This document shows, piece by piece, positions 1 through 3,853 of a stretch of DNA of 16,468 nucleotides. The notes beneath the pieces are model-generated. The model was not told the DNA's origin and searched no databases. It saw only the letters and a program-made list of their open reading frames with translations. Within the stretch, counting starts at the first letter, position 1. The number at the start of each line of letters is the position of its first letter. The stretch spans positions 1 to 16,468 of the forward strand of contig CAAGMX010000033.1 of the NCBI GenBank assembly GCA_900771165.1, written 5' to 3'. The translations under genes were made by a program, and so were the position numbers. Source of the DNA: Victivallales bacterium. Its GTDB lineage: Bacteria > Verrucomicrobiota > Lentisphaeria > Oligosphaerales > Oligosphaeraceae.

Positions 1-80
1 AAGACCCGAAAAAGGGGAGATGTGAAAAATTTGTTGTGCCTGTTTAGCCTCAAAACACCCCCCGAAGTGCGAAAGATGGG
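1..80. other. Left-edge noncoding stretch
   Basis: This AT-richer stretch precedes the repeat cluster. No open frame with recognisable protein content runs in from the left edge on either strand, and there is no clear promoter or hairpin. It is probably intergenic. Confidence 0.4.
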
Positions 81-138
81 CTAGACGGGGGTGGAGCGGA
101 GCGGGAACCCCCGGGAGCGGGAACCCCCGGGGGGACAG
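81..138 (+). repeat. GC-rich intergenic repeat, partial copy A1
   Basis: Bases 81-130 are repeated at 237-286 with a single difference (G at 94, A at 250). The unit starts CTAGACGGGGG and contains the palindromic element CGGGAACCCCCGGG in tandem. It ends in an ACAGGA box (about 134-139) that recurs, as ACAGGAT, at the end of the other copies. This copy lacks the upstream ACCCC/GGGGT hairpin, so it looks truncated or is an internal module of a longer composite element. It lies outside any convincing gene. Confidence 0.8.
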
Positions 139-170
139 GACGCAGCCCGGGAAACCCTTGGCGGAACACA

Positions 171-327
171 TTCCCCCGCTGGCGGGGCACACAGGGGGCA
201 TCCTTATGAACCCCGCCCTGCGGGGTGGCAGGATCGCTAGACGGGGGTGAAGCGGAGCGGGAACCCCCGGGAGCGGGAACCCCCGGCGGGTTTATCCCGG
301 CTGGGAACCCCCGGGGGTACAGGATTG
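171..327 (+). repeat. GC-rich intergenic repeat, full copy A2
   Basis: In order: a CCCCCGCTGGCGGGG hairpin (about 173-187), the box GGGGGCATCCTTATGAA (194-210), a hairpin of ACCCCGC (210-216) and GCGGGGT (220-226), the box CAGGATCGCTAGACGGGGG, two CGGGAACCCCCGG palindromes, a third AACCCCCGGGGG, and a terminal ACAGGAT. The same order recurs at 3029-3164 and, inverted, at 2804-2905. The hairpin sequence differs between copies while pairing is kept. I infer a REP/BIME-like dispersed element; no transposase is seen. Confidence 0.8.
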
Positions 328-418
328 CAAACAACACAACCTGTTGATTATCAAATACTTACAAAGACACAGCCATGAGGGGCACCCGTCATGGCTGTGT
401 GTGTTCTTCGGATTCCGT
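328..418. other. Short spacer between repeat A2 and GH20-like gene
   Basis: This spacer is AT-richer than its surroundings. Its only notable structure is the perfect 12-bp hairpin annotated separately at 367-400. Confidence 0.4.
367..400 (-). terminator. Hairpin terminator after the GH20-like gene
   Basis: ACACAGCCATGA (367-378) and TCATGGCTGTGT (389-400) form a perfect 12-bp stem with a 10-nt loop. On the minus strand the hairpin starts about 18 nt after the stop codon at 419, and the 3' arm is followed by a U-rich but interrupted run (CTTTGTAAGTATTT). This fits an intrinsic terminator with a weak U tract. It could also serve as a 3'-end stabilising hairpin. Confidence 0.65.
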
Positions 419-2548
419 CTATTCCTGGGGGGCTTCCCAGTTCACGGGGAGGGTCCAGGGGAGTTTTTCCACGGGAGTCTTCTTCTGGAGGGCTTCCAGG
501 AGTCCCTCCAGCACCAGCTTCATATAGCCCAGGTGCTGCATGGTAAACCACATGAGGGAGTCGGACATATTCTCCTCGATCCCCTTCATGCGCTCCACCA
601 GCTGGGGAATTTGCGCCTCAAGCAGCTTCTTGGCGGCGGCGGAACCGCCCTTCTTGTCCAGAGCCTCCTGAAGTTTGCCCAGGGTCTGGAAGAATTCCAG
701 CTGGATGCGCAGCCGCTGGGCACTCCCCAGAAGACTCTGCAGGGAAGCCTTGTGCAGGGTGGGCCACTGGGAGGCCCCCAGCAGGGAAGCCGCCTGGTCC
801 ACCAGGGCACCGGCCGTCTCCGCCGCATTCTGCAGACGAGAGGCCGCCCCCGAGGGCAGCTGGGAAAGAGCCTTGGTGGGGAAGGGAATCACCGCATGAT
901 CCCTGGCCTCCGTCTCCACATGCCAGGTGGGAAGAATCAGACGGCAGAGATCCGACTCCGCCAATTCCGTAAGCTTATCCAGCAGAGAAAGATAGGAATC
1001 CGCCACGCTTCCCCACTGCAGCTCGGCCCAGCGGTGGCGCAGATTCGGCACCGTATCCTCCTCCCAATCCGGGGTTTCCCAGCAGCGGACGCCCAGCAGG
1101 GCCAGCTGTTCCCAGTATCCGGGATCGAACTGTCCCCGGGCCAGCACCGCCTCGCCCTGGCGCTCCAGCACCTCTTTCAGGCTGGCATCCAGATTGTCCA
1201 GATTGCGGTTGAACCAGGTGTGGTTGCCCTGGTTCATCCAGGGACCGCTCCAGCTGCTGGCCTTGGCCAGGGCGCCCTTCCGGGCGAAGGCGGGCACACT
1301 CCCCTGCCAATGCACCACCACCTTGGCGGCGAAATCCTCGTCCCGGAACAGGGCTTCCAGTTCGGGGCCCAGCAGTTTGCTGCCCTGGCAGAGTTCCTCT
1401 CCGAAGAAGAGGACCCGTTTCACCCCGTGGGCGGTCAGGAAATCCACCATCCACTTCAAGTAGGAGGCCAGGAGAGCGGCCTGCCCCGCCTTCCGGCACT
1501 TGGGGCAGCGGCACCAGATGCTCTCCGTCTCCCCGTCGTTCTCATGGAGAGGAACGGGCTCCAGATCATCCAATCCGATGTGGAAGAACTCCACCCCCGT
1601 GGGGAAATGCCGTCTCAGGAAGCTGTCCAGCACCTTCTCCATCTCCTGGCGGGCCGCGGAGGAAGAGAGGCACAGGCCCTGCCCCGTGGGGCGCCCCTTC
1701 TCGTCACAGGCGGAAAGGGAGGGCAGCAGCCGGGGCAGCAGGGTGGAATGGCCCAGCAGTTCCATGTAGGGGAAAATGGTCACCCCCCGCTCCTTGCCGT
1801 AGGTGAGCACCTCGGAAAAAGCATCCCCCTCCGCCAAGGCGGGCACCGCCTCCCGGTCATACCAGCGGTCGTACTTCACATTGTAGTAGCGATAGCGGTT
1901 CCGGGAAACCAGGGAGGAAGGCACCCCCTCCTCCTCCATGGGGGCCAGCAGAAACTCCGAGGGACGGCTGGCCTGGAAGGGACGCACGTCGGGACGGCAG
2001 TCGTAGACCCCCAGGCCGAAGAGGTTCAAATGCAAAGCGCTCATGCAATCCAGCATCTGATTCCAAGCCACGGGATCCATCCGCTCCGTCCCCCAGTCCG
2101 CCCCCGCCAGAATTCCCCGGAGGGGCACCAGAGGCCAGTCGTGGATCACCAGATTGGGAACCGCACGCCCATGGAACATCATGGCAAAGAGGCTGGACAA
2201 CGTCTGGGCCGCCCAGACCATGCCCTCCTGGTGGGGAGTCCGGATAAACACCTCGCTTCCCCGGATCTCCAGGGAATAGTAGTCCTGCCGCACCGCCTCC
2301 GGCACCCGGGAAAGATCAAACTCCGACTCCTCCAGCACCTGGGCGTCCACCACATACTTCTTCTTGTTGGCCACCACCCGGACCCCCGCCAGATTCAAAA
2401 TGGAACGCAGCGCCTTGCGCTGGATCGGCAGCACATTGGAAGTGGAAAGGCGGACGTCCTTGGCAAGCTCGCTGATGCCCTCCCCCAGAATGACCTCCTT
2501 GGGCTGAGGGAAAAGCTCCGCAATCTCAAATCGACGGCTGGCAACCAT
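419..2548 (-). CDS. GH20-like glycoside hydrolase (beta-hexosaminidase family)
   Basis: 709 residues. The N-terminus (LFPQPKEV, residues 12-19) and residues to about 130 resemble the small alpha/beta domain (GH20b) before GH20 barrels. The barrel opens with IHDWPLVPLRGILAGADW (135-152) and includes YMELLGHSTL (261-270), FHIGLDDLEP (322-331) and a Cys cluster WCRCPKC (345-351). GH20 enzymes remove terminal GlcNAc or GalNAc by substrate-assisted catalysis using an Asp-Glu pair in HxGGDE. Here the equivalent is H323-I-G-L-D327-D328, so the acid/base Glu is apparently Asp. Residues from about 480 are helical and of unknown role. No signal peptide is visible, suggesting a cytosolic enzyme. The start at 2548 has AAGGA eight bases upstream. 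The open frame continues 134 codons further upstream, but that part is Gly/Pro-rich translated repeat DNA and was rejected. The family call is good; the substrate is unknown. Confidence 0.8.
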   Translation of the reverse strand: MVASRRFEIAELFPQPKEVILGEGISELAKDVRLSTSNVLPIQRKALRSILNLAGVRVVANKKKYVVDAQVLEESEFDLSRVPEAVRQDYYSLEIRGSEVFIRTPHQEGMVWAAQTLSSLFAMMFHGRAVPNLVIHDWPLVPLRGILAGADWGTERMDPVAWNQMLDCMSALHLNLFGLGVYDCRPDVRPFQASRPSEFLLAPMEEEGVPSSLVSRNRYRYYNVKYDRWYDREAVPALAEGDAFSEVLTYGKERGVTIFPYMELLGHSTLLPRLLPSLSACDEKGRPTGQGLCLSSSAARQEMEKVLDSFLRRHFPTGVEFFHIGLDDLEPVPLHENDGETESIWCRCPKCRKAGQAALLASYLKWMVDFLTAHGVKRVLFFGEELCQGSKLLGPELEALFRDEDFAAKVVVHWQGSVPAFARKGALAKASSWSGPWMNQGNHTWFNRNLDNLDASLKEVLERQGEAVLARGQFDPGYWEQLALLGVRCWETPDWEEDTVPNLRHRWAELQWGSVADSYLSLLDKLTELAESDLCRLILPTWHVETEARDHAVIPFPTKALSQLPSGAASRLQNAAETAGALVDQAASLLGASQWPTLHKASLQSLLGSAQRLRIQLEFFQTLGKLQEALDKKGGSAAAKKLLEAQIPQLVERMKGIEENMSDSLMWFTMQHLGYMKLVLEGLLEALQKKTPVEKLPWTLPVNWEAPQE

Positions 2549-2803
2549 AATGGATTTCCTTGACTCCCTGATTCCGCCTGAGGCCTCCGCCAGGAAAAGA
2601 GGAGGGCGGCTCTCCCCTGCCCCCCTCGCTTCCCGGCCAAAAAGGCTTGGCAATGATACAAATCCTGTAAGCACGAAAACCCGCCCGGCACGGCTTCCGG
2701 ACAGGCGCAAAAGAACAGGGCATACTATAATCCCTGCTCCGCTCTCCGCCTGCCCGCCCCTAGGGAGATTCCCACCACCCCCATACCCCGGTAAATCCTG
2801 GCC
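2549..2803. other. Upstream region of the GH20-like gene
   Basis: About 255 nt without a supported gene. It holds the Shine-Dalgarno of the GH20-like gene just above 2548. A TATAAT at 2726-2731 on the plus strand has no good -35 partner and no plus-strand gene to serve. On the minus strand, TATCAT-like sequence near 2653-2660 could be a -10 element for the GH20-like gene, but the match is weak. Confidence 0.3.
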
Positions 2804-2905
2804 GAAACCCCACCCCCGGGGGTTCCCGGCCGCCCCCCCGTCTAGCGATCCTGTCACCCCTCCGGGGTTCAAGAGGAATTCCCCCCGTCCCCCGCCAGCG
2901 GGGGT
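2804..2905 (-). repeat. GC-rich intergenic repeat, inverted copy B
   Basis: On the minus strand this reads in the same order as A2: CCCCCGCTGGCGGGGG (2889-2904), a poorly conserved middle, hairpin ACCCC/GGGGT (2856-2860 with 2864-2868, 3-nt loop), then TGACAGGATCGCTAGACGGGGG and a GGGAACCCCCGGGGG palindrome (about 2812-2826). It is inverted relative to copies A and C. The reading frame of the GH20-like gene runs open through this element, which explains the artificial N-terminal extension. Confidence 0.75.
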
Positions 2906-3028
2906 GGAGGTAGCGCCAAGGGGGTTCCCCGGGGAATGATGCTCGTACACCGTAGTTGCGTAGCTTGATGGCGGCGTCAGAATGTTCCTTAGGCGGGGGA
3001 ACGGGGGATCGGGGGTGTCCCCCGCCTT
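2906..3028. other. Spacer between inverted repeat copies
   Basis: Contains a GGGGTTCCCCGGGG palindrome (about 2920-2935) resembling the repeat modules. A less GC-rich patch at about 2940-2990 lacks repeat character and could be a gene remnant, though I cannot name one. A GGGGGTGTCCCCC hairpin follows at about 3011-3023. Confidence 0.35.
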
Positions 3029-3164
3029 GGCGGAACCCCTCTGGGGGGAGGGGGCATCCTTATGAACCCCGTTTACGGGGTGACAGGATCAATAGACGGG
3101 GTTTCCGGCCGGGATAATCCGGCCGAGAACCCCCGGGGAGCGGGAACCCCTGGGGGCACAGGAT
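3029..3164 (+). repeat. GC-rich intergenic repeat, copy C
   Basis: The box GGGGGCATCCTTATGAA (from 3050) matches copy A2. It is followed by a hairpin of ACCCCGT (3066-3072) and ACGGGGT (3075-3081), the box TGACAGGATCAATAGACGGGG, a TTCCGGCCGGGATAATCCGGCCG palindromic block, AACCCCCGGGG, AACCCCTGGGGG and a terminal CACAGGAT. In A2 the equivalent stem is ACCCCGC/GCGGGGT, so the last pair has changed from C-G to T-A with pairing preserved. Confidence 0.75.
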
Positions 3165-3217
3165 GTATTCCAGGAAAGATTGCCGTCACCTCCCCCCCCC
3201 CACGAATCTGTTTATCC
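3165..3217. other. 3' flank of the CYTH gene with a poly-C tract
   Basis: A run of ten C (3192-3201) lies just beyond the CYTH stop codon on the minus strand. No intrinsic terminator is seen here. Transcripts of the CYTH gene would run into repeat copy C, whose hairpins may act as terminators. The homopolymer is a place where length could vary or be mis-sequenced. Confidence 0.45.
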
Positions 3218-3697
3218 TTATCCTTCGGGCCAGCGTCCGGCCTGGGCCAGGGCGGCGTTGGCGAAGCGTCCATCCAGAGTTTTCTCCTCCCCCAGCCATG
3301 GGGGGCGAACGAAGGGGAAATCCTCCCGGGGGACCTCCAATTCCGCGGTGAAATGTCCTTCCAGGGGGCCGTGGTAGGCATCGATTTCCCATTGGCATCC
3401 CGGTTCTGCCGCAGGCACGAAATACCGGGTTTTGGCCACCATGCGGTTTTGGCAGAAGAAAGCCAGCAATTCCCGGGCGTCCTCCACGGGAATGGGATAC
3501 TCGAATTCCCGGCGGCTCATTCCCTGGGCCTTTCCCTTGATGTTCAAGTTTGCCTGGTCTCCGATGATGCGCACCCGGAAGGAGCCCTCTCCGGCCACGG
3601 CAAAATATCCCTGGAGGATTTCCACGGACTGCCGGGCCTGGCTGCGCCAGGAATCGTTCTTCACCAGGAACTTTCTTTCCCTCTCCACCATCGCCAT
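3218..3697 (-). CDS. CYTH-domain protein (triphosphate tunnel enzyme family)
   Basis: 159 residues, the usual size for a single CYTH domain. The signature ExExK is visible as ERERKF (residues 5-10). The beta strands of the tunnel follow with alternating charged residues: FRVRI, LNIKG, RREFEYPI, KTRYFV, QWEIDAY and AELEV. CYTH proteins bind triphosphates with divalent metal inside a beta-barrel tunnel. Bacterial members of this length are mostly inorganic triphosphatases; some are class IV adenylate cyclases. Sequence alone does not separate these. The start at 3697 has GAGGAG nine bases upstream; an in-frame ATG two codons later is less well placed. It is transcribed away from the polysaccharide operon and toward repeat C, with no functional partner next to it. 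Confidence 0.88.
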   Translation of the reverse strand: MAMVERERKFLVKNDSWRSQARQSVEILQGYFAVAGEGSFRVRIIGDQANLNIKGKAQGMSRREFEYPIPVEDARELLAFFCQNRMVAKTRYFVPAAEPGCQWEIDAYHGPLEGHFTAELEVPREDFPFVRPPWLGEEKTLDGRFANAALAQAGRWPEG

Positions 3698-3853
3698 AGG
3701 GCAAATCTCCTCGCCGGCCTGGATTCCAGCAGTCCAGGGAACGTGCTATATTTTGGGCCACGAACACCCGTGAATGAACCCCCTGCTGGAAACCTGTCCC
3801 GCCCCAGGGCGGGAGCGAAGGGGGCATGACGGGATACTGTAGCACACCACGCC
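3698..3853. promoter_or_regulatory. Divergent intergenic region, likely promoters of CYTH gene and sugar operon
   Basis: This 156-nt gap separates two divergent genes, so it should hold a promoter for each. TATATT (3747-3752) is a possible -10 element for the plus strand, with TTCCAG 17 bp upstream as a poor -35. The AT island lies between two perfect inverted 9-mers, TTCCAGCAG (3724-3732) and CTGCTGGAA (3783-3791), which might be an operator or cruciform. A CCCGCC/GGCGGG hairpin (about 3798-3813) and GGGGGCATGACGGG hint at a decayed fragment of the nearby repeat family. Confidence 0.35.

Follow-up and report, generated by a model that had tools for sequence, protein, structure and literature searches.

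A dispersed two-hairpin repeat beside a GH20 gene of a Victivallales bacterium and its likely Y1 transposase partner in relatives

Repeat copies in the window

The window analysed here, the whole stretch of 16,468 nucleotides from a Victivallales bacterium (Oligosphaeraceae type; contig CAAGMX010000033.1), comprises a GH20 gene, a neighbouring CYTH gene and four copies, A to D, of a GC-rich, REP-like (repetitive extragenic palindrome) element, all of them intergenic (Table 1). An earlier note on this DNA had described three full copies and one partial copy sharing an ordered set of boxes; the copies lie where it placed them, and the order is confirmed. Each full copy comprises (i) CCTTGGCG and a first GC hairpin, (ii) a small hairpin GAACCCC...GGGGT, (iii) the linker G[GA]CAGGATCnnTAGA, (iv) a large hairpin CGGGG...CCCCG, and (v) additional GGGAACCCCCGG modules. 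All three full copies contain the box [GA]CAGGATC; CATCCTTATGAA is found unaltered in A and C and in degenerate form in B; and TAGACGGGG occurs four times in the window, being absent from 60 loci of relatives (L076-L135). The upstream part, CCTTGGCG with the first GC hairpin, is common to A, B and C, beginning about 15 bases upstream of position 171, where the earlier note started its first copy; it is a feature of the window copies and lies outside the unit modelled in relatives. The four bases 5' of the large hairpin, hereafter the foot, read CTAG in A, B and D and ATAG in C, the next base being A.

In local alignments each of the six copy pairs scores above all 500 dinucleotide shuffles, with a narrow margin for B-D (44 versus 43 for the best shuffle). 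Copy D is 96% identical to A across 55 nt, the two differing by one whole module, and a similar module stands elsewhere in C; the unit is therefore modular. Slippage or recombination involving the small palindromes probably accounts for the differences in module number, and the window copies are probably older and diverged.

The claim that pairing is kept while bases change is not borne out by the window copies themselves. Five of the six pairs of the ACCCC/GGGGT hairpin are invariant, in copy B the sixth cannot form, and the score of the two-hairpin structure was reached by 183 of 500 shuffles, so that covariation is not demonstrable on these copies alone. A seventh pair, C-G in A and T-A in C, would leave copy C with a loop of two bases, and the A/C difference is therefore mostly one of stem and loop length. 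Folding as single-stranded DNA, compared with shuffles, gave z-scores of -2.6 for A and -3.2 for C, and folding as RNA gave -2.0 for A, -3.4 for C and -1.8 for B.

Table 1. Repeat copies and neighbouring genes in the window. R2 is a covariance model built from copies in relatives, and A3 the alignment underlying it.
Feature	Position	Strand	Description and basis
Copy A	155..326	+	full unit and upstream hairpin; R2 match 204-294, 35.2 bits, E 2.9e-8
Copy A small hairpin ACCCCGC/GCGGGGT	210..226	+	sequence; aligns to R2 small hairpin
Copy A linker GGCAGGATCGCTAGA, CTAG foot included	227..241	+	sequence; family linker in A3
Copy A large hairpin CGGGGGT...ACCCCCG	242..269	+	followed by more GGGAACCCCCGG modules to ~318; sequence, R2 alignment
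Copy B, inverted	2796..2922	-	R2 match 2808-2874 (-), 29.9 bits, E 7e-7
Copy B small hairpin	2856-2868	-	
Copy B large hairpin	2817-2840	-	
Copy C	3024..3166	+	R2 match 3060-3144 (+), 23.8 bits, E 2.8e-5
Copy C small hairpin	3066-3081	+	
Copy C large hairpin	3097-3135	+	
Copy D, 5'-truncated	~80..138	+	foot, large hairpin 86-113, then modules
GH20-CYTH intergenic gap	2549..3217		669 bp; contains copies B and C
GH20 gene	419-2548	-	protein 85% identical to Oligosphaeraceae protein P0003
CYTH gene	3218-3697	-	PF01928

The family in related genomes

The family was traced in relatives, the window species' own genome not being among those searched. The class set comprised 197 genomes from the class to which a named Lentisphaerae genome (L001) belongs. 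Searched with a covariance model (R1) built on the cores of window copies A, B and C, this set gave one match, in genome G050, at E 0.0027 per genome (about 0.5 expected over 197). The matching DNA is a tandem array of ~91-bp units, each displaying a small hairpin of the same kind, a linker GACAGGATCCTAGAC and a large hairpin GTGGGT...ACCCAC, and a blastn search with the array disclosed related DNA in 9 of the 197 genomes, G050 counted. A six-seed nhmmer search over the collected loci, with copy A as one of the seeds, then yielded 96 matches, three of them in the window. Alignment A3 comprises 47 copies from relatives, omitting window matches, partial copies, duplicates and some near-identical array copies, and model R2 was built from these 47 rows and no window row.

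When the window was scanned with R2, filters off, its top four matches were A, B, C and D (D at 41-138, E 0.0041), the fifth reaching only E 0.054. This result bears on whether the copies in the window arose independently, as GC-rich hairpins resembling the family by convergence, an explanation to which the GC-richness of the window, the varying module number, the upstream part that is not modelled in relatives and the poor folding of copy B lend some colour. We regard it as hardly credible, given that a model without any window row ranks all four copies first, that the small hairpin, G[GA]CAGGA linker, TAG foot and large hairpin follow in the same order in window and relatives, and that units in G040 (locus L261), which in their own orientation read GAACCCCGAAGGGGTGACAGG and CAGCCGGGGGTGAAGCGAAGCGGAACCCCCGG, look close by eye to those of the window. 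Further variants were seen in relatives: (i) a G040 hairpin, GTCACCCCGTC...GACGGGGTGACAGG followed by ACTATAGCCG (L118, ~1490-1530), where R1 gave no match, looks like a partial family member, and (ii) a G049 copy (L149) with the large hairpin CCCAGGGC...GCCCTGGG looks like a further subfamily.

Searches with single boxes or single copies were less productive. An exact-box scan of genome contigs returned 75 loci, all judged to be chance on reading; the pattern RCAGGATCNNTAGACGGGG with at most one mismatch matched in 4 of the 197 genomes, again judged chance, its reversed control matching in 2; and blastn of copy C against seven relatives gave 30 short matches (E 0.2-5), the box order missing in the eight that were read. 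Three pattern searches of viral contigs gave one chance match, none and none, and no match was found in plasmids searched with copy A or in phages searched with copy C. The translated repeat frames, compared with 5.8 billion proteins for spurious open reading frames (ORFs) over other copies, matched none.

The unit shared by the relatives comprises the small hairpin, a linker with the consensus ACAGGA and then [TC]AG, and the large hairpin. Across A3, 94.7% of cells are paired and 10 of 18 pairs change on both sides, in 54 cells. These three values were reached by none of 500 shuffles and the measure of further pair types by 54 of 500, with slid-structure controls displaying only 1-4 pairs with two-sided change. 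The small hairpin is clearest, four of its five pairs covarying, against one of eight in the outer stem of the large hairpin. Selection on a hairpin, proposed earlier from the window alone, thus finds its support in the 47 copies of relatives. The foot in these rows reads ATAG (18), ACAG (8), CCAG (5), CTAG (5), TTAG (5) or otherwise (6), so that [ACT][TC]AG is displayed by 41 of 47 and the first base is never G; the canonical REP foot GT[AG]G (or CGTC) was matched neither in these rows nor in the window copies.

At E 1e-4, R2 finds the family in 50 of the 197 class genomes, in 42 genomes of a 387-genome sample of the phylum, class members included, and in one of 50 genomes of mixed groups (50 of 74 loci, picked for diversity), where the sole Verrucomicrobia genome gave no match. 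The positive in the mixed set is a Bacteroidetes genome with three rows at two places, whose DNA shows a similar hairpin pair and which may hold a true relative. Copy numbers are lower bounds, with 23 candidates scored per class genome and 11 per phylum genome; five genomes carry at least 23 copies, all 23 scored candidates matching. The covariance-model search that the earlier note had proposed discloses, in relatives, many copies per genome.

The suggested intergenic preference is borne out in part. Among the best copies of 35 genomes, ORFs of at least 100 aa cover on average 36% of the copy and 81% of the rest of the locus. The preference is clear in G044-G048, G050, G051 and G053, where eight of eight copies lie outside such ORFs, and weaker in the other 27 genomes, where 13 copies overlap one by more than half, bearing in mind that in GC-rich DNA many ORFs of this length may not be genes.

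Association with Y1 transposase genes

A search of 12 genomes with PF01797 (Y1_Tnp) gave 30 Y1 loci (90.5 kb). The six-seed nhmmer search, seeded entirely from outside the Y1 loci, had 32 of its 96 matches in these loci and two in 361.6 kb of other contigs, four of the five having been chosen for GH20 and the fifth, G047:C49, which holds both matches, because copies lie further along it; the corresponding R2 counts were 54 rows (51 places) and 5 rows (4 places). The association centres on one protein type, defined by similarity to the 151-aa protein of L213 at 1e-12 and encoded in 11 of the 30 loci. Nine of the 11 have copies within 700 bp, eight are flanked on both sides by inverted copies, and 43 of 44 copies point at the gene, with the large hairpin toward it and the small hairpin outward. 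In a class-wide search, of which 30 matches were examined with their surrounding locus, 24 further loci of this type, absent from the model, include 15 with copies, four of them flanked on both sides, and 24 of 30 copies point at the gene. Among the 19 other Y1 loci, used as a control, only three have copies, L200 and L212 being flanked on both sides, and in 30 GH20 loci from this class, examined over their whole length, R2 found six rows, in four loci. The gene also co-occurs with the family: 31 of the 50 family genomes have it, compared with 23 of the other 147 (Fisher p 1.3e-9, taking no account of kinship).

The proteins of this type appear, by their signature motifs, to belong with TnpA_Y1 subclass 1.2: Y---Q--HH is present in 35 of 35 loci, with WQ as well in 32, and HUH variants among them comprise DHLH, NHLH, EHVH, NHIH, DHAH and DHCH. 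The earlier note had pointed to a TnpA-REP (REP-associated tyrosine transposase, RAYT) gene as the partner to look for; a Y1 transposase does accompany the family in relatives, but not a RAYT of the NCBIfam type, since six flanked proteins score 16-27 bits against NCBIfam REP_Tyr_transpos (cut-off 80) and the Y motif of the protein type is Y---Q--HH. The same six reach 32-45 bits against transpos_IS200 (cut-off 55), a seventh flanked protein, that of L205, scoring 56.2 bits, above that cut-off. Among solved structures no close relative of the Y1 protein was found by sequence, IS200-type chains appearing only at E 0.9.

In L200, from the near relative G055, a Y1 gene lies between inverted copies at 1360-1432 (+) and 1987-2059 (-), its 3' part, with the motif YIANQREHH, lying in a different frame from the rest. 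Near-identical stretches of ~50 bp (L200:1190-1240 and 2122-2175, by eye) bracket this gene and its inverted copies, and may be duplicated neighbouring sequence.

Presence and absence of the unit were compared among G050, G051 and G053, which are 85-87% identical over the compared contigs. Five of the six element sites queried have orthologous flanks, and the nine comparisons at these five sites comprise seven without a full unit, one of which retains the small hairpin only, and two with it; at one site G053 has ~234 bp of copies where G051 has 27 bp. Element sites of these three genomes (L153, L166, L168, L289, L294, L297, L298, L302) adjoin tandem runs of the seven-base units TTAGTGG and ATTAATG. 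Of 54 copies, 9 have a period-7 run no more than ~125 bp away, compared with 7 of 2000 random positions, intergenic or not.

These observations allow two further explanations to be weighed. In the first, the repeats would be immobile cis-acting RNA or DNA structures, such as attenuators, terminators or mRNA-stabilising hairpins, selected at gene ends. Conserved, covarying stems and a lower overlap with ORFs than that of their surroundings are what such structures would display; nevertheless, the window copies stand in both orientations relative to genes, orthologous sites of close relatives often have no unit, inverted pairs cluster round Y1 genes, and the window hairpins show neither a T run behind them by eye, no terminator scan having been made, nor an Rfam family. 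In Rfam searches no match exceeded the gathering score in the window, a loose threshold giving 13 that all fall far below it, and none did so in five loci of relatives. A purely cis-acting role is decidedly unlikely.

In the second, ordinary recombination and replication slippage between palindromes would spread the units, Y1 genes co-accumulating in permissive sites. The variable module number, tandem arrays of near-identical units, the seven-base runs near 9 of 54 copies and the absence of the gene from 19 of 50 family genomes agree with this explanation, which does not predict, however, that one Y1 type should be flanked left and right by inverted, gene-pointing copies when other Y1 loci have few nearby, and we judge it very unlikely.

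We therefore favour, with considerable though not full confidence, the reading that the window repeats belong to a dispersed two-hairpin REP-like element, likely mobilised in trans by a Y1 (HUH) transposase of TnpA_Y1 subclass 1.2 type. Since the units point inward in inverted pairs round Y1 genes, the transposase likely copies or moves them, and the element would be non-autonomous, with transposition itself inferred.

Several observations weigh against this reading. As to the repeat, the structure used for covariation was derived from A3 itself, pair counts were viewed first and the slid-structure controls lean its way; copy B folds as DNA no better than shuffles (z -0.25); near relatives hold few copies that pass (one in G054, one in G055, two in G056); and presence or absence alone cannot separate insertion from deletion. 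As to the partner, (i) 14 of the 47 R2 rows come from Y1 loci, which makes the R2 counts at those loci partly circular, a problem that the 24 further loci do not share; (ii) in those 24 loci, 6 of 30 copies point away from the gene; (iii) 11 of 35 genes of this type have no copy within 700 bp; (iv) 19 of the 50 family genomes show no such gene, including G046, in which 23 of 23 candidates match; and (v) the transposase link comes from relatives, none having been seen in the window organism, whose genome lay outside the search, with the flanked Y1 gene of G055 frame-broken and decayed in appearance and G054 giving no Y1 match in the PF01797 search.

Known systems, mechanism and the GH20 neighbourhood

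REP sequences and bacterial interspersed mosaic elements (BIMEs) with their TnpA_REP enzymes (RAYT, REPtron) resemble the present system in comprising short palindromes in many copies, here with a lean to extragenic sites, a low-copy Y1 gene adjoining them and a foot 5' of the hairpin, as described in the available parts of PMC8266576 and PMC6006769. The unit described here differs in its two unlike hairpins and in the foot, [ACT][TC]AG in 41 of 47 rows compared to GT[AG]G, and its transposase displays Y---Q--HH where TnpA_REP enzymes show the class-2 Y---NP type. The GTAG-tagged REPs of Opitutus terrae and Rhodopirellula baltica come from the same superphylum (Planctomycetes, Verrucomicrobia and Chlamydiae, PVC) and are likewise palindromes with a 5' tetranucleotide, some PVC families being degenerate (GYAG, GYRG); their tag starts with G, whereas the foot never does so in the 47 rows, and Lentisphaer is unmentioned in the main text of that paper (PMC3733652). 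In the accessible parts of the 2018 classification, subclass 1.2 is defined by Y---Q--HH, DH[IV]H and WQ, a size of ~150 aa and low copy number, mostly from Cyanobacteria and Bacteroidetes and with no associated hairpins listed, its automatic REP search having relied on GT[AG]G feet and atypical structures having been included manually for other subclasses (PMC6006769). The genes described here share the motifs, size and low copy number of that subclass and differ in being often flanked by hairpin units. Our literature search on Lentisphaeria and PVC intergenic repeats, REPtron, TnpAY1 and RAYT found no report of this family, subscription papers being mostly uncovered.

IS200/IS605 elements (TnpA subclass 1.1) are alike in their HUH/Y1 family and in the hairpins adjoining the gene; they are whole insertion sequences with hairpins at the ends, whereas the units here are also dispersed without a gene. 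BOX elements of Streptococcus pneumoniae are likewise modular and intergenic, with a variable number of central modules, and differ in sequence and host; we know of no Y1 partner for them.

IS200/IS605 and TnpA_REP enzymes cut and join single-stranded DNA with the foot as a guide, according to the portions available of PMC8266576. On that model, the Y1 transposase would bind the folded hairpin in single-stranded DNA, the foot beside the large hairpin would guide its choice of cut site, and cutting and joining of the single-stranded unit could copy or move it during replication or repair. More broadly, the balance tilts, with less assurance, towards subclass 1.2 Y1 transposases acting as the mobilising partner in a distinct REP system, whose unit has two hairpins and a [TC]AG foot and would be missed by GT[AG]G searches, present across Lentisphaeria, other Verrucomicrobiota and perhaps Bacteroidota, and inserting partly beside heptamer tandem repeats. 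Such a system would extend REP-like elements to a unit of two hairpins with another foot, and provides a candidate substrate for a class of single-strand transposases listed without one in the published classification. Because close relatives differ in having or lacking units at orthologous sites and the protein has only ~150 aa, cut-site choice and spread without movement of the gene are directly testable.

The GH20 gene, which had been suggested to form part of a mobile or recombining unit with the copies on either side, is probably a bystander. The order GH20, CYTH gene, epimerase is kept in G054 and G055, the GH20 of the latter being 58% identical to that of the window, and R2 finds no copy around GH20 in either genome. 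The CYTH-GH20 gap, 669 bp in the window with copies B and C, is shorter in both relatives (G054, 196 bp; G055, 359 bp); compared by length, these gaps do not represent a clean empty site.

Upstream, the GH20 frame (419-2950, -) continues without a stop across copy B as far as a GTG at 2950, so that a gene finder could place the GH20 start inside or beyond the repeat. The CYTH ORF at 3218-3697, the real gene, is overlapped by a longer ORF (3186-3845, -) with no Pfam family. Between GH20 and copy A, at ~372-412, lies a strong hairpin by eye, where weak chance Rfam matches also fall, and which may be the GH20 terminator.

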